Of a DNA stretch of 11,605 nt, positions 1,000-10,715 are shown piece after piece. The notes under the pieces are model-generated. The model was not told where the DNA came from. It worked only from the letters and a program-made list of their open reading frames with translations, and searched no databases. The stretch spans positions 1 to 11,605 of the forward strand of contig QMWA01000033.1 in assembly GCA_003661385.1 (NCBI GenBank), written 5' to 3'. The first letter of the stretch is position 1; each line of letters opens with the position of its first letter. The translations under genes and the position numbers were made by a program. This DNA is from Thermoproteota archaeon (lineage in GTDB: Archaea; Korarchaeota; Korarchaeia; B14-G2).

Positions 1000-1794
1000 T
1001 CAGCTCCATAGCCACTTGATCTTGTAGCTTGAGGCTGCTTCAGCTATGGCCTTGGCTCTAGCTGGGTCTACTGGGTTCTCTGTCTTGGCTTCTTGCTTGG
1101 CTGCAGTCCCCACTATGGCTCCATCACATATGCTCAGGATCTCTTGGATGTTTGAAGCTGTCACCCCGCTTCCAGCCAGCACAGGCCTGCTCACAGCACC
1201 CTTCACTACTCTGGCGGCCTCTAGGCTAGGTGGCTCCCCTGTTGCCTCCCCGGTGACTATTATGGCGTCAGCTAGGCTCCTCTCAGCTAGGTCTCTGGCT
1301 GAGTGCTCCAGCGGCCTCTCCACTAGTGGCCTGGCGTGCTTGACCCTGATGTCAGCTAGGACCTTGATGTCAGCTTGGAGGCTACGCCTCATCCTCATGA
1401 GCACATGGGCTTCAGGCTCGATCACGCCCTGGTCTGTAGCGTAGGCCTCAGATAGCACGTTCACCCTGATGAACTCCGCTCCAGCTGCAGCAGCTACAGC
1501 TAAAGCTGCTAGGGAGTCGTTCCTTAGGACACTCACCCCAACTGGGATGCTGACCTCCTCAGCTACCCTGGCTACGACCACGCTCATCGAAGCCACTGTC
1601 TCAGGTGGCACTCTACGAGGGTAGTAGGGCTTGTCACCGTAGTTCTCGACTAGGACTGCTGTGAATCCTGCTTCAGCGTACTTGAGGGCGTCGCCTACAG
1701 CTCTCTCAGCTATCTCCCTCACACTCATGCTCCAGAGCGGAGCACCAGGTAGTGGAGGGAGGTGGACTACACCGATCAAGGCCTTCAACAGCAC
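1000..1794 (-). CDS. BtpA/SgcQ family protein (TIM-barrel-like)
   Basis: A 264-residue protein of full family length. Landmarks: IGVVHLPPLPGAP (7-19), VENYGDKPY (49-57), DIRVKHA (148-154), TGEATGEPP (181-189), VLAGSGVT (205-212) and DGAIVGT (224-230). The glycine-rich strand ends near the C-terminus are typical of a phosphate-binding TIM barrel. The cyanobacterial namesake BtpA is needed for photosystem I accumulation; SgcQ sits in a sugar operon. Archaeal members have no established reaction, so I give no substrate. The start is GTG 1794, 25 nt from the centre of a TATA box, which fits a leaderless transcript; TTG 1788 is an alternative start. It diverges from the HD-domain gene at 1845. Confidence 0.85.
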   Translation of the reverse strand: MLLKALIGVVHLPPLPGAPLWSMSVREIAERAVGDALKYAEAGFTAVLVENYGDKPYYPRRVPPETVASMSVVVARVAEEVSIPVGVSVLRNDSLAALAVAAAAGAEFIRVNVLSEAYATDQGVIEPEAHVLMRMRRSLQADIKVLADIRVKHARPLVERPLEHSARDLAERSLADAIIVTGEATGEPPSLEAARVVKGAVSRPVLAGSGVTASNIQEILSICDGAIVGTAAKQEAKTENPVDPARAKAIAEAASSYKIKWLWS

Positions 1795-1815
1795 CCCCAG
1801 AGCTCTAGCCCATGG

Positions 1816-1824
1816 CTTAAATAC
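1816..1824. promoter_or_regulatory. Shared bidirectional TATA box (BtpA gene / HD gene)
   Basis: CTTAAATAC on plus reads GTATTTAAG on minus, so either strand offers an archaeal TATA element. Its centre (about 1819.5-1820) is 25-26 nt from GTG 1794 on one side and from ATG 1845 on the other. With the usual TATA-to-start-site distance in archaea, both transcripts would begin at or next to the start codon. No other TATA-like box lies in the 50 bp between the two starts. Confidence 0.65.
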
Positions 1825-1844
1825 AAGCAGCTATGTAGCTGGGC

Positions 1845-2504
1845 ATGCTATTCGAGAGGGACCCGAGGTTCAGGAGGGTGGTTGCAGCAGCTAGGGAAAG
1901 GTACCCTAAGCTAGCTTCACATGGCTTCAGCCACGCACTCAGAGTGCTGGGGAACGCGATGGCTATAGCTGAGAGGGAGGGGGGAGATAGGCTTGTGCTC
2001 GCTTTAGCAGCCATACTACATGACATAGCCTACTCAAGAGAGCTCAAGGAGGGCGTAGACCACGCTGAGGAGGGAGCTAAGGAGGCTTATAGGCTGCTCC
2101 AGCAGGCAGGATACAGCAGGGAGGTGGCTGAGAGGGTTGCTGAGGTGATAAGGGAGCACAGGTTCAGCTCCAGAGCTAAGCCAAGCAGCCTTGAGTCAGC
2201 TATACTGCAAGATGCTGACAGACTGGATGCAATAGGGGCAATAGGCATAGCTAGGGTGTTCGCTAAGGCCGGGGAAGACGCTAGGGAGATATATGACCCA
2301 AGTGAGAAGCCTGGAGAGTACACCAGGGGAAGAAAGACATCTGCCGTGACGCACTTCCACGAGAAGCTCCTCAAGATAGCTAGCAGCCTGAACACCAAAA
2401 CCGCTAGGGAAATCGGGGAGAAGAGGCATGAGTTCATGCTCCAGTTCCTAAGGCAGCTTGAGGAGGAGGTTAAGGCAGCTAAGTGCATGCAGCTAGCCCT
2501 CTAG
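1845..2504 (+). CDS. HD-domain metal-dependent phosphohydrolase
   Basis: 219 residues. The HD superfamily signature is clear: SHGFSHALRV with H30 as first metal ligand, ILHD (H59-D60), EHRFSS (H105), and DADRLDAIGAIGIAR with D125. This is the pattern of small cytosolic HD phosphohydrolases (YedJ-like, COG1418-type), which cut phosphate esters of nucleotides or related compounds; the actual substrate is unknown. No membrane segment or signal peptide is seen. ATG 1845 is chosen because it lies 25 nt after the TATA box centre, giving a leaderless message. The charged tail (EKRHEFMLQFLRQLEEEVKA) is probably a long helix. It shares its promoter region with the BtpA-family gene, so the two may be co-regulated. 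Confidence 0.88.
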   Translation: MLFERDPRFRRVVAAARERYPKLASHGFSHALRVLGNAMAIAEREGGDRLVLALAAILHDIAYSRELKEGVDHAEEGAKEAYRLLQQAGYSREVAERVAEVIREHRFSSRAKPSSLESAILQDADRLDAIGAIGIARVFAKAGEDAREIYDPSEKPGEYTRGRKTSAVTHFHEKLLKIASSLNTKTAREIGEKRHEFMLQFLRQLEEEVKAAKCMQLAL

Positions 2505-3782: not shown

Positions 3783-4466
3783 TTGGCTAGCATATACCTC
3801 TATGCTGTGGCTGTGAAGAACATGAGGGGAGTCCTCTACTCTAGGAGCTCAGCTAGCGAGCTCAGGGAGAAGGCTAGGTGGCTAGCGAGGAGGTTCAGGT
3901 ATAGGAGCATTGGGGTGACGAAGTGGCTCCTCAGGGAGTACAGCGACGTTGCTGAGCTCAGGAGGAGGCCCTTTAAGGCCATCAAGCCCCCTACAGCTGA
4001 GGCTAAGAGGGTCCTTGAGGCAGCTGGGAGGCTTGGGCCTGCAGTTGAGCACGCTGTAGCAGCCTCACTGTATGTATCCCCTTTGATCATAGCTGGAGAG
4101 GAGGGGTTAGGGGAGCTCAAGCCCTACGTGGTAGCTGAGGTCAAGTGTAGCAGGGAGCTCTCTGATCGGGAGTGGAGGCTTCACTTCAGGATAGCAGACT
4201 ACGCTGTGCTAGATATGGCAGAGTGGGCTATTGAGAGCACTAGGAGGGCAGTTGAGGGCATTAGATCTGGTGGGGGTTTAAGTGAGGTTGTTGAGGAGAG
4301 GAAAGCCAGGGTTCAGAGGGACTTGAGGAGGTACTGGAGGATCTCCGAGGAAGAGGGGAGGACTGTCGTAGCCTACATAGACCTGCTAGCTGCCTGCAGG
4401 AAGCTTCCCCTCGACTTGGAGTGGGCTACACCTGCTCTCTCTGTTGTGGCAGCTGTCATAGTGTAG
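3783..4466 (+). CDS. Hypothetical protein, 227 residues, unrecognised
   Basis: I do not recognise a family. The protein is soluble-looking and rich in Arg, Glu and Ala. An N-terminal strand (IYLYAVAVKN) is followed by basic helices (ELREKARWLARRFRYRS), a central segment around YVVAEVKCSREL, and long charged helices (about 160-190) that might be a coiled coil. The last residues (ATPALSVVAAVIV) are hydrophobic and may form a strand or anchor. TAG directly precedes TTG 3783, so the frame cannot extend upstream. A GGTGG lies a few bases before TTG; ATG 3822, about 28 nt after the TATA-like CATATA, is an alternative start. Codon use matches the neighbours, so I believe it is a gene. Its end overlaps the end of the convergent ZIP gene by 11 nt. 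Confidence 0.7.
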   Translation: MASIYLYAVAVKNMRGVLYSRSSASELREKARWLARRFRYRSIGVTKWLLREYSDVAELRRRPFKAIKPPTAEAKRVLEAAGRLGPAVEHAVAASLYVSPLIIAGEEGLGELKPYVVAEVKCSRELSDREWRLHFRIADYAVLDMAEWAIESTRRAVEGIRSGGGLSEVVEERKARVQRDLRRYWRISEEEGRTVVAYIDLLAACRKLPLDLEWATPALSVVAAVIV

Positions 4467-5214
4467 AGTCGAGGTATAGCATGAGTATGAGGCCTGCTAT
4501 GAGCCCGTAGCTTGCAGCCCTCTCCCTACCTAGCCTGTGCGTCTCTGGTATGATCTCATCACTTACTACGAACAGCATGGCGCCAGCAGCAAAGCCCATT
4601 GCATATGGCAGCAGAGCTCGCGCTGCTGACACTGCTATGGCGCCAGCTAGGCTAAGTGGAGCCTCGACAAGCCCTGATGCCACAGCTATCATGTAGGCTC
4701 TAGGCCTGCTCTCCCCCTCTGAGAGCATGGAGAAGCCTACAGCCAGGCCCTCTGGGATGTTCTGCAGCCCTATAGCCGCCATCACCGCTAGCGCCACATG
4801 TGTGCTGCCGGATGCGAAGGCTACACCCACAGCTAGCCCCTCCGGCATGTTGTGTAGCGTCATGGCTAAAGCCAGCATCCACGTCGAGCTCAGCCTAGAT
4901 GGCAAGCCCTCTCTGCCTATCACTACATGGAGGTGGGGTGTCACATAGTCTAGCAGGCTCATGGCTAGTGCTCCAGCTAGCACACCAGCTAAGGCAGCTG
5001 CCACGCCTCCAGCCTCTATTGCAGGCTGGATTAGGCTTGTGAAGCTTGCTGCGAGCATAACTCCAGCTGCAAAACCCAGGCCAGCGTCACTTAGCCTCCT
5101 CGGTGGAGCCTTCAAGAGCAGCACAGGCGTAGCCCCCATGGCATTGAGAGCTGAGGTCACCAGCCCAGCTAGCAGAGCTCCAGCTAAGGGGTGCTCGAGA
5201 ACTCTAGGCAGCAT
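4456..5214 (-). CDS. ZIP family divalent metal transporter (GufA/ZupT-like)
   Basis: 252 residues with about eight membrane segments. The metal-path motifs of the family are present: HNMPEGLAVG (H121, P124, E125) in the fourth helix and QNIPEGLAVG (Q151, P154, E155) in the fifth. Glutamine in place of the first histidine of the second motif is usual in the GufA branch. VEAP (E184) and SDEIIPETH (E220, H226) follow. The family moves zinc, iron or other divalent cations into the cytoplasm; the substrate here is not determined. A loop near 92-105 has HLH, a possible metal-binding site. ATG 5214 is the start, 25 nt from a TATA centre, so a leaderless transcript is likely. It diverges from the radical SAM gene and converges with the 227-residue ORF. 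Confidence 0.88.
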   Translation of the reverse strand: MLPRVLEHPLAGALLAGLVTSALNAMGATPVLLLKAPPRRLSDAGLGFAAGVMLAASFTSLIQPAIEAGGVAAALAGVLAGALAMSLLDYVTPHLHVVIGREGLPSRLSSTWMLALAMTLHNMPEGLAVGVAFASGSTHVALAVMAAIGLQNIPEGLAVGFSMLSEGESRPRAYMIAVASGLVEAPLSLAGAIAVSAARALLPYAMGFAAGAMLFVVSDEIIPETHRLGRERAASYGLIAGLILMLYLDSTL

Positions 5215-5233
5215 ACGTGGGTTTGGGGCCAGC

Positions 5234-5242
5234 TTTTATAAC
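5234..5242. promoter_or_regulatory. Shared bidirectional TATA box (ZIP gene / radical SAM gene)
   Basis: TTTTATAAC on plus, GTTATAAAA on minus. The centre (about 5238.5) is 25 nt from ATG 5214 and 25.5 nt from TTG 5264. The two start codons are 50 nt apart with this single TATA box in the middle, the same layout as at 1816-1824. Confidence 0.65.
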
Positions 5243-5263
5243 TGGGTGGTGGTCTGCTATGGG

Positions 5264-6976
5264 TTGCGGGCTGTAGTACTGGATGGATATAGTGATGAGC
5301 CAGCTGGGCTAGGTGTCCCCCCATACCTGGATGTCTACTCTAGGTACGTTGCTGGAGCAATCTGGTCTGTCGAGCATGCAGCTGAAGTCCTATACTTCAC
5401 CGTCGACCAGGCTAGAGCTGACTTCAGTAGGTTCGCCAAGGCGGCTAGCAGAGCAGACCTCCTAGTTGTCGTAGCTGGGGTATGTGTGCCAGGGAAGTAC
5501 CTTGGTGGAGAGCCCATCAGGCTTGAGGAGCTCAAGGCATGGAGCAAGCTAATAAGGGGGCCTGTTAAGGTGCTTGGTGGGCCAGCTGCCAAATTCGGCT
5601 TCGGAATTGAGGGAGGTAGGGTAGCTAAGCTGCCATCAGAGGCCTCTGAGGGCTTCGACCTGGTTGCAACAGGCGACGTTGAGGCTGTAGTCTATAGGCT
5701 GCTCCAGGAGAATCTCAGAGCTGAGGCAGTTGACCCAGGCGAGGAGAGGCCAAGCCAAGGGTTCATAGCTGAGCTAGCAGTCCGTGGAGCTAAGCTCGTG
5801 GTCCAGCACCCATGCTATAGGAGGAACCTGATATGTGAGATAGAGACGTATAGGGGGTGCCCTAGAGCTGTAGTCGGTGGGTGCAGCTTCTGCATCGAGC
5901 CCCTCAGGGGGCTTCCCCAGTTTAGGGAGCCGAGGGATGTGGTCAGGGAGGTTGAGGCCCTGTATAAGGCGGGGGTGGAGTTCATAAGGCTTGGGAGGCA
6001 GCCTGACTTCTTCACATACATGGCTAGAGGCGTAGGTGACCTTGAGTTCCCTGAGCCTAGGCCAGAGGAGATAGAGAAGCTCCTCGCTGGGATCAGGGCC
6101 ATGGCCCCTGGGCTGAGGACGCTGCACATAGACAACGTGAACCCTGGGACAGTATACCACCACCCAGAGGAGTCTAGGAGGATAGCTAAAATACTGCTTA
6201 AGTACCATACGCCAGGAGATGTGGCAGCCTACGGGATTGAGTCAGCTGACCCAAGGGTAGTCAAGCTGAACAACCTCAAGGTCATGCCAGATGAGGCCTT
6301 TGAGGCCATAAGACTGCTCAATGAGGTGGGGGCAGTTAGAGGCTGGAATGGGCTGCCGCACCTCCTTCCTGGAGTCAACTTCGTCTATGGGCTGATAGGT
6401 GAGACCAAGGAGACATACGGGCTCAACCTGGAGTTCATGAAGAGGGTGCTAGAGGAAGGGCTGATGGTCCGGAGGATAAATCTCAGGCAGGTCATGGCCT
6501 TCCCAGGCACAAGGATGTGGAGCTACGGGGACCAGGTCATCAGAAGGCACAGGAGGCTTTTCCAAGCCCACAAGCTCAGGATGAGGAGGGAAGTAGACCT
6601 CCCTATGCTGAGGAGAGTGGTGCCAGCTTGGACCATCCTCAGAGAGGTGTACGTGGAGAAGGCTGGGAGAAACCTGACCTACGCTAGGCAGGTTGGAGCA
6701 TACCCTATCCTAGTCTGCTGCAGGGAGAAGCTTGAGCTAGGCAGGTTCATGGACTTCACGGTTGTAGCCCACGGCTACAGGTCTGTGACAGGCATCCCAC
6801 ACCCACTTGACCTGAACAAAGCTTCAAGGAGGCTCCTAGAGGACATCCCACTGATAGGCAGGAGGAGAGCATACAGGATAGCAGCCAGGAGGCCTATAAG
6901 GAGCCTAAGTGAGCTGGCAGAAGCCCTAGGCAGCAGGAAGGCAGCTGAGAAGCTCAAGCCCTACATAAAGCTTTAA
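5264..6976 (+). CDS. Radical SAM protein with C-terminal helix-hairpin-helix region (COG1031-like)
   Basis: 570 residues from TTG 5264. The first 150 or so residues (AVVLDGYSD, VVAGVCVPGKYLGGEP, VKVLGGPAAKFG) resemble the Rossmann-like, B12-binding-type domain found in YgiQ-like radical SAM enzymes. The iron-sulfur motif is C199-x7-C207-x2-C210 (YRGCPRAVVGGCSFC), a wider first gap than the classic Cx3C but typical of this archaeal group. GIESADPRVVKLNN and GLIGETKETYG fit the SAM-barrel core. From about 515 on, LDLNKASRRLLEDIPLIG and the next 37 residues look like a ComEA-type helix-hairpin-helix, suggesting nucleic acid contact. The reaction is unknown. The frame is open for another 101 codons upstream, but that part is antisense to the ZIP gene. 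TTG 5264 sits 25.5 nt after the TATA centre, so I take it as the start. Confidence 0.85.
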   Translation: MRAVVLDGYSDEPAGLGVPPYLDVYSRYVAGAIWSVEHAAEVLYFTVDQARADFSRFAKAASRADLLVVVAGVCVPGKYLGGEPIRLEELKAWSKLIRGPVKVLGGPAAKFGFGIEGGRVAKLPSEASEGFDLVATGDVEAVVYRLLQENLRAEAVDPGEERPSQGFIAELAVRGAKLVVQHPCYRRNLICEIETYRGCPRAVVGGCSFCIEPLRGLPQFREPRDVVREVEALYKAGVEFIRLGRQPDFFTYMARGVGDLEFPEPRPEEIEKLLAGIRAMAPGLRTLHIDNVNPGTVYHHPEESRRIAKILLKYHTPGDVAAYGIESADPRVVKLNNLKVMPDEAFEAIRLLNEVGAVRGWNGLPHLLPGVNFVYGLIGETKETYGLNLEFMKRVLEEGLMVRRINLRQVMAFPGTRMWSYGDQVIRRHRRLFQAHKLRMRREVDLPMLRRVVPAWTILREVYVEKAGRNLTYARQVGAYPILVCCREKLELGRFMDFTVVAHGYRSVTGIPHPLDLNKASRRLLEDIPLIGRRRAYRIAARRPIRSLSELAEALGSRKAAEKLKPYIKL

Positions 6977-7217: not shown

Positions 7218-7424
7218 ATGGTGGCTACCACCATACCTGTAAGCATTGAGACCAAGAGGGAGCTTGAGGCAGTTAAGGGAGATAGGACATGGGATGAGGT
7301 TATCAGGGAGCTCCTGCACGTGTATAGGAGAGAGAAGGCCAGGAAAGCCCTGATGGAGCTGAGGAAGATCCCATTAGACATGGAGTACAGGGAGGTGAGG
7401 CTGAAATTAGGCTTAAGAGAGTGA
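7218..7424 (+). CDS. vapB: VapB-family antitoxin
   Basis: 68 residues. The N-terminal half (TTIPVSIETKRELEAVKG, then RTWDEVIRELLHVY) fits a DNA-binding ribbon-helix-helix or similar dimerisation domain: a short strand followed by two helices. The C-terminal half (ARKALMELRKIPLDMEYREV) would be the tail that wraps and blocks the toxin's active site. The stop TGA overlaps the start of vapC, so the pair is translationally coupled. Antitoxins of this type also repress their own operon. The gene has a decayed relative at 8677. Confidence 0.85.
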   Translation: MVATTIPVSIETKRELEAVKGDRTWDEVIRELLHVYRREKARKALMELRKIPLDMEYREVRLKLGLRE

Positions 7425-7813
7425 TGCTCGACACCGATGTCGTGATAGAGGTGGATAAGGGGAGGCTGGAGCTGCCTGATGCCGCATGCTACATCTCAGC
7501 CCTAACCCTCTACGAGTACATCAGGGGGAAGAGGGACTACAGGAGAGCTAAGGAGCTAGCTGAGCAAGTGTACTATGTGCTGCCAGTCAGCAACAAGGTG
7601 CTGCTCCTCGCGTCAGGGATCTGGAGAAAGCTGAAGACAGCTGGCATGCTAGTAGATGACAGAGACCTCCTGATAGGCGCCACAGCAATAGCCCATGAGC
7701 TGCCGCTATACACCCTCAACAGAAGGCACTACGAGAGGCTACTGGAATACGGGCTCCAGCTCTGGCCTCAAACACCTAGAGGACAAGCAAAACCTAGCTC
7801 CAAGCCTACATGA
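7421..7813 (+). CDS. vapC: VapC-family toxin, PIN-domain ribonuclease
   Basis: 130 residues, usual PIN size. Acidic metal ligands are visible: D4 in MLDTDVV, E32 in LYEYIRG and D82 in VDDRDLLIGATAI. The late motif TLNRRHYERL (98-107) has histidine where many PIN domains have aspartate, a variant common in VapC. Such toxins cut RNA in a magnesium-dependent way when VapB is lost. GTG 7421 overlaps the vapB end by 4 nt; ATG 7424, with a 1-nt TGATG overlap, is an equally good start and changes one residue. The last 15 residues (PQTPRGQAKPSSKPT) are polar and probably disordered. All of the catalytic set is present, so it is probably active. Confidence 0.88.
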   Translation: MMLDTDVVIEVDKGRLELPDAACYISALTLYEYIRGKRDYRRAKELAEQVYYVLPVSNKVLLLASGIWRKLKTAGMLVDDRDLLIGATAIAHELPLYTLNRRHYERLLEYGLQLWPQTPRGQAKPSSKPT

Positions 7814-8676: not shown

Positions 8677-9107
8677 ATGGCAGCTATAGCCATCGACGTG
8701 GAGTAGGATTACCTGAGGCAAAGTGTTTGGATAAAAGTGTCAAAGAGACCCCACACACGTACAGGGAGGAGGCTAGAGAAGCCCTCAAAGAGCTCAAGAG
8801 GATACCACTAGACATGGGATACGAGGAGATGAGACCGAAATTAAGCTTGAGAGAGCAATGCTATAGTGAAGTGAATAAGAGCAAGCTGAAGCTACCTGAT
8901 GCCACACTCTACACTCCAGCCCCCAAAGAGTTCATGGAGAGAGCTAGGGAGCTAGCCGGGCAGGCGTATTATGAGCTAGCAACAGGATGATGTCTCCTCA
9001 CATCAGGGCTAGCAGGTGACAGAGGCTAGTAGGTGCTACAGCTATTAGCCTTGAGACGCCGGCTGCACACCTCTGGTAGACATTATGGGCTCCAGCTGTG
9101 GATTTAG
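8677..9107 (+). pseudogene. Decayed second copy of vapBC
   Basis: The stretch parallels the intact vapBC at 7218-7813. ATG 8677 starts a damaged VapB N-terminus with TAG at 8704. EALKELKRIPLDM and PKLSLRE match ALMELRKIPLDM and LKLGLRE of VapB. The vapB stop TGA is changed to CAA, which joins the two genes in one 87-codon frame (TTG 8727 to 8990). About six codons holding the catalytic DTD of VapC are gone, and so is part of the region around E32. NKSKLKLPDA and RARELAGQAYY still match VapC. Beyond 8990 the match goes on in broken frames to YGLQLW just before TAG 9105-9107. It cannot make a working toxin; a fused antitoxin-like peptide is possible. Its end touches the stop codon of the convergent Fe-S gene. 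Confidence 0.8.
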
Positions 9108-9682
9108 AGCCCTAGGGAGCTTAAGGGCACTCCACTTAGCTTCAAGTTGCCCTTCAGGTGGGGGCAGTTTGCTAGCTTGGCTTCCCCCTGGTATACCGCG
9201 ACTGCGAAGGCTGAGCAGGTTTGGTAGCCGCAGTCTCCGCAGTCAAGCTTAGGTAGAGTGTGGTATATGTCCATCCACGTGAGCTTGGCCTTAGCCTCCA
9301 GCTCTCTTCTCGTAGGCTTGCCTCTCCTCCGGTACTCTAGGTACGCCTCGTTTAGCATCCTCCTGATCTTCTCTGTGATCTCCTTAGCCTCCCTGATGTC
9401 TCTCGTGTTGGTGACAGCTATCTTCCCTGATGGGAAGAGGGTTATCAGCCTGTTGTACATCCTGAGTGTCAGGATGTTCTCTTCAATGGAGTAGCTGGCT
9501 CTCCCAGGTGGTGTTCTGAGGAAGACGATGGGTATGAGCTCTGAGAGCTCCCTGTCTGCCTGAGCTATGAACCTGATGTACCCTGGTGTGGTGAAGCATG
9601 GTAGGACCTCTCTGATCTCTATCCTCTTCACATAGGCTCTCTTCTCCTCGGACTCGACTAGCAGCTTGTATATGTCAACCAA
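9104..9682 (-). CDS. 4Fe-4S protein with a TBP-like N-terminal region, last gene of a sulfur operon
   Basis: 192 residues from TTG 9682. The C-terminal part (about 135-175) carries C148-x2-C151-x4-C156-x16-C173 (KLDCGDCGYQTCSAF), the single-cluster Fe-S domain (PF04060 type) also found in corrinoid and electron-transfer proteins. The N-terminal part (about 33-113) has ASYSIEENILTLRMYN, LITLFPSGKIAVTNTRDI and then a long helix. This recalls one half of the TATA-binding-protein fold, whose hallmark is IFSSGKMVCTGAKS plus helix. That resemblance is my reading and needs a structure check. TTG is preceded by GGTGAG, which overlaps the stop of the DsrE-family gene before it, so translation is coupled. 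Function unknown; electron transfer for the sulfur relay is an inference from context. Confidence 0.75.
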   Translation of the reverse strand: MVDIYKLLVESEEKRAYVKRIEIREVLPCFTTPGYIRFIAQADRELSELIPIVFLRTPPGRASYSIEENILTLRMYNRLITLFPSGKIAVTNTRDIREAKEITEKIRRMLNEAYLEYRRRGKPTRRELEAKAKLTWMDIYHTLPKLDCGDCGYQTCSAFAVAVYQGEAKLANCPHLKGNLKLSGVPLSSLGL

Positions 9683-9690
9683 GCTCTCAC

Positions 9691-10032
9691 CTAGAAGACT
9701 AGCACCCAGCTTGCCTCCATGGCAGCTTTAGCTATCTCCTTCTGGTCAGCGACCTTAGCGTGCTCTACGAGCTCATCTCTTCGGATGCCCCTCTCCTCCA
9801 TGGACTTCCCGTCGACTAGGAGCTTTACATCAGGGTAAGATGCGTACAGCAGGTCCTCTATGCTGGGGCCCTGGGGCCTCTGCCCTCTCATTGCAGCGTA
9901 GACGCCGTCTCCGACTAGCAGTAGAGTAGAGGAGATGCCCTTTTCAGCGCAGGCTAATGCAGTGTAGGCTGCTCCAAGCGCGTCCTCCCTCCCATATGGT
10001 GGCTTGGTGAGCACTACCAGCAAGCTACTCAC
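9691..10032 (-). CDS. DsrE-family protein, DsrF/TusC-like (no relay cysteine)
   Basis: 113 residues from GTG 10032. The opening TKPPYGREDALGAAYTALAC and LLLVGDGVYAAMRGQ (38-51) resemble DsrF/TusC subunits of the sulfur-relay hexamer. At the position where the two sister proteins have the relay cysteine (Cx6RG) it has aspartate: D74 with R81-G82. It may therefore be structural and not a sulfur carrier; C28 is its only cysteine. TTG 10023 is an alternative start with the better-spaced GGTGAG, but GTG 10032 gives an N-terminus that aligns with its sisters. GTG 10032 overlaps the end of the previous gene by 8 nt, so they are co-translated. Confidence 0.75.
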   Translation of the reverse strand: MSSLLVVLTKPPYGREDALGAAYTALACAEKGISSTLLLVGDGVYAAMRGQRPQGPSIEDLLYASYPDVKLLVDGKSMEERGIRRDELVEHAKVADQKEIAKAAMEASWVLVF

Positions 10033-10378
10033 CTAGCGCTATGAGCTTAGCTCCACTCTTAAGCAGCTCAGGTAGCTTGTATATGCTCGAGACCTCTACT
10101 CCATGCACGTATCCGCTGCTTCCATAGCCTCTCGCACCGGCACACCTAGCACATGAGAAAACCCTGAGCCCTCTAGCTATGAGAGTGGACAGCCTCCTCT
10201 CAGCGTTAGGTAGGCACAGAGGCCTCTGCCCTCTCTTAGGTAGGTGCACTCCATCCATGTACAGGAAGAGGCAGACATCATAGCCCTTATCAAGGGCTTT
10301 CTCACAGATGTCGAGAGCTATCTCAGCTAGCTGCGAGGTGTACGGTGGAGCAGCCAGGTACACGACAAGCCGCTTCAA
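10025..10378 (-). CDS. DsrE-family sulfur-relay protein (cysteine-bearing)
   Basis: 117 residues from TTG 10378, preceded by GGTGGG that overlaps the stop of the gene before. Fold landmarks of the DsrE family: an opening strand RLVVYLAAPPY, a helix, and CLFLYMDGVHLPKRGQ (36-51). C76 with R83-G84 (SCARCAGARGYG) is at the active-cysteine position of DsrE/TusD, and C79 stands nearby as a second thiol. Such proteins accept and pass on persulfide sulfur, usually in a DsrEFH/TusBCD complex with a TusA partner. No tusA is in the window. The two extra cysteines (C36, C55) are unusual and could bind metal or form disulfides. Confidence 0.75.
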   Translation of the reverse strand: MKRLVVYLAAPPYTSQLAEIALDICEKALDKGYDVCLFLYMDGVHLPKRGQRPLCLPNAERRLSTLIARGLRVFSCARCAGARGYGSSGYVHGVEVSSIYKLPELLKSGAKLIALGE

Positions 10379-10388
10379 GCAGGCCCAC

Positions 10389-10715
10389 CTACACTGAGAC
10401 TACGTGGCTACACCTCTCCACTGCATCCTCCACAAGCTGAAGGTAGAAGTCCTCTAGCACCCTAACCCCATCCAGCAGGCTGCTCTCCTTGACTCCACGA
10501 GCCTCAAGGTCCTTCCTGCACACATACACCTCACAGCCAGCTGAAGCGAGCATCTTGACTGTTCTACACTGCCTCCTTGCAGCCAGCACAGCATCGCTGG
10601 CTAGGTACAAGGCGACCTCACCTCCACTTCTCTTCACCTCAGTAGCGAGCTCCAGGACCCAGGTGAGCTCACCTAGCCTTGACGGGGGCTTAGTGGCTAG
10701 TATCAGGAGCCTCAT
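10389..10715 (-). CDS. DsrE-family sulfur-relay protein (cysteine-bearing)
   Basis: 108 residues from ATG 10715. RLLILATKPP opens the protein and EVALYLASDAVLAARR (33-48) matches the second strand and helix of the DsrE fold. C66 with R73-G74 (VYVCRKDLEARGV) is the candidate sulfur-carrying cysteine; C61 is close by. The end (ERCSHVVSV) is typical of the last strand. ATG overlaps the stop of the TauE/SafE gene by 4 nt (ATGA), showing one operon. Which of DsrE, DsrF or DsrH it matches best cannot be settled by eye. Confidence 0.72.
   Translation of the reverse strand: MRLLILATKPPSRLGELTWVLELATEVKRSGGEVALYLASDAVLAARRQCRTVKMLASAGCEVYVCRKDLEARGVKESSLLDGVRVLEDFYLQLVEDAVERCSHVVSV

Follow-up and report, generated by a model that had tools for sequence, protein, structure and literature searches.

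Two neighbouring genes in an archaeal draft genome, encoding a ZIP metal transporter and a radical SAM protein, diverge across a gap of 49 nt, which raises the question of whether a single TATA element between them can serve both. The window analysed here is the whole contig (C33; 11,605 nt) of a 1.74-Mb draft genome of 206 contigs. The ZIP start codon ATG 5214 (CAT at 5212-5214, minus strand) and the radical-SAM start codon TTG 5264 (plus strand) lie 50 nt apart. A first-pass annotation of this DNA had given both positions, and TTTTATAAC at 5234-5242, exactly in coordinates and in sequence; its identification of the two genes also holds, as both proteins carry genuine domains of the families named (PF02535 and PF04055). 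At its C-terminus, the radical SAM protein additionally shows a weak helix-hairpin-helix match that stays under the family cut-off (PF12836, 6.4e-05). We consider it quite likely that the gap acts as one bidirectional BRE-TATA-BRE promoter, predicted to fire two leaderless mRNAs (Table 1). Elsewhere in the window, three TusB/C/D-like genes and a gene with an Fe-S domain stand in series on the minus strand (9104-10715), possibly as a sulfur-transfer operon. The window also holds a VapB/PIN-like gene pair (7218-7813), of which 8727-8990 resembles a decayed copy (RIPLDMGYEEMRPKLSLRE vs KIPLDMEYREVRLKLGLRE).

Table 1 Features of the two close divergent gene pairs in the window.
Feature	Position	Strand	Evidence
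ZIP metal transporter, ATG start, predicted leaderless	4456..5214	-	PF02535, 7.9e-24
Radical SAM protein, TTG start, predicted leaderless	5264..6976	+	PF04055, 2.6e-11
Shared TATA box TTTTATAA, predicted two-way use	5234..5241	.	Window-unique octamer; score with tandem-trained matrix
Candidate BRE CCAGC, toward radical-SAM gene	5229..5233	+	Position in motif aAaGcTTtaAA; BRE part 2.5-3.1
Candidate BRE region CCCAGT, toward ZIP gene	5241..5246	-	BRE part negative except in one register (1.9)
Gap between BtpA (-) and HD (+) starts, 51 nt; TTAAAT 1818-1823	1794..1845	.	Weak shared-promoter support

The gap between the ZIP and radical-SAM genes has a G+C content of 55%, and its sole AT run, TTTTATAA, is also its sole TATA element. 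The centre of this element is no further than about 1.5 nt from the midpoint between the two starts, which bears out the single central TATA box described in the first-pass annotation. Its TTATAA core (5236-5241) is a perfect palindrome centred on 5238.5, next to a start-to-start midpoint of 5239. The arrangement had also been called mirror-symmetric, which is true of this core but less so of the wider segment 5229-5245, where only 12 of 17 bases agree with the reverse complement. A scan of the gap for sigma-70 promoters and terminators returned no matches. We give next to no weight to the possibility that an AT-rich octamer merely happens to lie between two mis-called starts. The gene starts are indeed predicted and the octamer inherently scores both ways, but the 11.6-kb window holds a single copy of TTTTATAA, where shuffled sequences lead one to expect 0.03, and the genome-wide placement signal described below is missing from shuffles.

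To place this element within the promoter grammar of the genome, genes were called on 869 kb, half of the genome, yielding 823 genes and 133 divergent pairs. The gene caller included a coding model for membrane proteins; otherwise, the ZIP region was merged into an extended radical-SAM frame. A motif search upstream of the genes, seeded with TATA-like hexamers, recovered aAaGcTTtaAA, a BRE-plus-TATA element, in this half-genome sample. The distances from TATA centre to start codon peak overall at ~25 nt and ~34 nt; in close divergent pairs, the best TATA lies 23-27 or 33-35 nt from the in-frame start. Shine-Dalgarno-like sequences were found in 44 of 69 starts of the ~34-nt class vs 12 of 37 of the ~25-nt class (Fisher p=0.002). 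Being poorer in such sequences, the ~25-nt class behaves as leaderless transcription would predict, and the ~34-nt class behaves as if it carried a short leader. Both distances recur in two relatives of the same class, G005 and G003, the latter belonging to a different genus with 63% G+C. The two-distance pattern is absent in G027, a genome from another class, where an AaGGaG-type motif stands ahead of the gene starts. In the present genome (G000 sample), G003 and G005, the ~34-nt class implies many leaders of just ~8-9 nt, often with the Shine-Dalgarno-like motif near the 5' end. The TTTTATAA site lies 26.5 nt from TTG 5264 in the plus direction and 22.5 nt from ATG 5214 in the minus direction, and with start codons standing in for transcription starts, both distances fall inside the 22-28 nt leaderless class.

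The predicted layout depends on TTG 5264 being the start of the radical-SAM gene, and the gene calls were made in this analysis. The frame also offers GTG codons at 5246 and 5249, of which the gene caller chose 5249. GTG 5249 is only ~11 nt from the TTTTATAA TATA and would thus lie upstream of any transcript arising from it; an mRNA starting at this codon would require a TATA near 5215-5224, where the sequence contains none. The alignment with the best orthologues, ~50% identical and found in G026 and G027 from a different class of the phylum, begins at the TTG-5264 residue, which a few additional residues precede. Moreover, TTG is used at 5 of the 37 leaderless-type starts in the genome sample. 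Judging from the TATA distance, the orthologue alignment and this use of TTG elsewhere, TTG 5264 is the better start.

How might one element serve two genes? TBP would bind the near-palindromic TTTTATAA, TFB would dock on either side of it, and RNA polymerase would initiate ~25 nt away in either direction. Transcription would then begin no more than about 3 nt from ATG 5214 and from TTG 5264, and with starts so placed both mRNAs would be leaderless. Although TTTTATAA is predicted to be used in both directions, a complex would presumably assemble in just one of them at a time. Symmetric binding by TBP, with TFB setting the direction, is established elsewhere, and we infer by analogy that it applies here. 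What can be read directly from the DNA is the single TATA, its distances, the strength of the motif both ways and the genome-wide enrichment of the layout.

Alternatively, the TATA might be a one-way element, probably for the radical-SAM gene, its central position being a by-product of tight packing and ZIP transcription being weak or arising at another site. Directionality, set by TFB, is found in many archaeal promoters (PMC6640164), and the BRE part of this promoter is moderate, register-dependent and better in the plus than in the minus direction (2.5-3.1 vs -1.9 to 1.9). Yet the full motif is about equally strong both ways: with a matrix trained on tandem promoters, the site scores 9.7 in the plus and 9.5 in the minus direction, where the 99th percentile of coding DNA is 8.8. 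Furthermore, no other TATA is within reach of ATG 5214, and shared promoters as a group retain a strong second side (see below). We therefore judge a one-way element unlikely and favour the bidirectional promoter.

Support for the bidirectional promoter comes from the genome at large. Among 29 divergent pairs whose starts are 40-80 nt apart, 17 have their best TATA 22-37 nt from each start, against a mean of 3.6 and a maximum of 8 in 300 dinucleotide shuffles. A slightly wider set of such pairs gave a similar picture (17 of 31 sharing their best TATA; shuffles 3.6, maximum 9). Training the matrix on tandem promoters only, with no divergent genes, removes circularity and still left 15 of 31 pairs sharing a TATA (shuffles 4.1, maximum 8). 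Near-palindromic TATA boxes inherently score both ways, and thus two-way scores alone are no proof of two-way use. In a like-for-like comparison, however, the weaker direction of shared promoters scored higher than the weaker direction of tandem ones (p=0.005 in the present genome and 0.02 in G005), which is supportive rather than decisive as the matrix was trained on both groups. Nor were shared promoters weaker than tandem sense promoters when compared in this way. A first comparison of the BRE part had the opposite outcome and was dropped, as its tandem sites had been picked by the full motif and its shared sites by the TATA only. The sequence comparisons suggest selection for two-way use beyond the inherent symmetry of the TATA box.

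Is the spacing of 50 nt itself special? A scan proposed in the first-pass annotation, for starts 48-53 nt apart with a TATA no more than 2 nt off the midpoint, returned 5 of 7 pairs vs 0.53 in shuffles (maximum 3). This central placement is what speaks for a genome-wide design particular to 48-53 nt and selected for exact mirror symmetry. Such a design is nonetheless very improbable: divergent pairs number 6, 6, 6, 5, 5, 5 and 8 per 6-nt bin from 48 to 89 nt, with no spike at 48-53 nt, also when three genomes are pooled. Pairs with both sides leaderless number 7, where 6.6 are expected if the sides are independent, and pairs 54-69 nt apart, in which one or both genes have a short leader, show sharing just as well. 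The spacing of 48-53 nt is thus not itself a design. Instead, 50 nt is 25+25, one sum of the two-mode TATA-to-start distance, and the same rule gives ~59 and ~68; it is about the smallest gap that lets one TATA serve both genes. Of the standing design suggested earlier, the sharing of TATA boxes survives, at 15-17 of 29-31 close pairs against 3.6-4.1 in shuffles, whereas the 50-nt spacing, having no peak, does not. That two pairs with ~50-nt spacing fall in the same window is mildly unusual (P 0.008-0.04, calculated post hoc).

The other of these pairs, BtpA and HD, had been described as having the same geometry. The spacing between BtpA 1794 and HD 1845 agrees with this, but the TATA is weak: with the tandem-trained matrix, TTAAAT reaches only 5.0 in the plus direction, short of the coding-DNA 95th percentile of 7.4, and the gap holds no matching site in the minus direction. 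In the stretches examined, BtpA was never found beside HD relatives.

We also looked for conservation of the ZIP/radical-SAM neighbourhood in class-level relatives, of which there are 25. ZIP relatives are present in 16 other genomes of the class; in no class relative does a ZIP gene stand beside a divergent orthologous radical-SAM gene, and the radical-SAM orthologues in G026 and G027 have other neighbours. Thus, conservation does not back this individual promoter, and co-regulation of the two genes is unsupported; compaction is enough to account for their arrangement. As a separate observation, the radical-SAM orthologue in G027 follows a metal ABC-transporter permease-like gene and lies near a metal P-type ATPase-like one, as judged by reading the sequence (L181, 3417-4280 and 2-871). 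Together with the ZIP gene here, these metal-transport-like neighbours would be compatible with a possible metal-related role for the radical-SAM family. Furthermore, most genomes of the class contain a distant radical-SAM relative (L023-L037) with a minus-strand frame of ~540-650 nt just upstream, mostly at a distance of at most ~115 nt, which is possibly another conserved divergent pair.

Taken together, these data offer a sequence-level promoter picture for the class, probably Korarchaeia, with two TATA-to-start classes and about half of the close divergent pairs sharing a TATA. As to the lineage, a query with RNA polymerase B brought up only distant matches of 45-49% identity, most of them from Bathyarchaeota. 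The two classes improve the annotation of start codons, as in the case of TTG 5264 over GTG 5249, and the shared promoters provide natural cases in which a symmetric promoter would yield a pair of mRNAs instead of one mRNA plus noise. More tentatively, and with doubts outweighing our confidence, the Korarchaeia as a class might bring divergent genes as close together as a single two-way TATA allows when it has to serve both mRNAs, whether these are leaderless or carry leaders of ~9 nt, their expression being reciprocally coupled. If true, two unrelated genes would compete for one TBP-TFB complex, and this competition would couple them. Our non-exhaustive literature search found neither a promoter study for Korarchaeia nor a prior account of such a promoter in this group.

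Among known systems, symmetric promoters of bacteria and archaea that transcribe divergently were reportedly described by Warman et al. (2021, Nat Microbiol 6:746). The likeness lies in a symmetry of core elements that permits initiation both ways; the difference is that their work was experimental and in other species.

A closer counterpart is known from Pyrococcus furiosus, which has bidirectional BRE-TATA-BRE promoters with a shared TATA and starts ~50 bp apart; at PF1918, with starts 49 bp apart, a bidirectional TATA promoter was demonstrated in vitro (PMC6640164). There, the second transcript analysed was an antisense RNA in head-to-tail genes (PMC6640164). The mRNAs of P. furiosus are mostly leadered. 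The ZIP/radical-SAM gap likewise has one near-symmetric TATA between starts ~50 bp apart, with codons standing for transcription starts, but in contrast to P. furiosus its predicted outputs are two leaderless mRNAs. As to leaderless transcription, 72% of protein-coding starts are leaderless in Haloferax volcanii (PMC4983044), and both there and in Saccharolobus solfataricus (PMC11698992) transcription begins at or adjoining the start codon. The predicted transcription starts at or beside the start codon resemble both systems. In what these sources say on leaderless starts, shared divergent promoters do not come up, and the present genome mixes leaderless starts with leaders of ~8-9 nt. By analogy, the ZIP/radical-SAM promoter is a predicted member of the known bidirectional archaeal TATA kind, with two leaderless mRNAs as its outputs.
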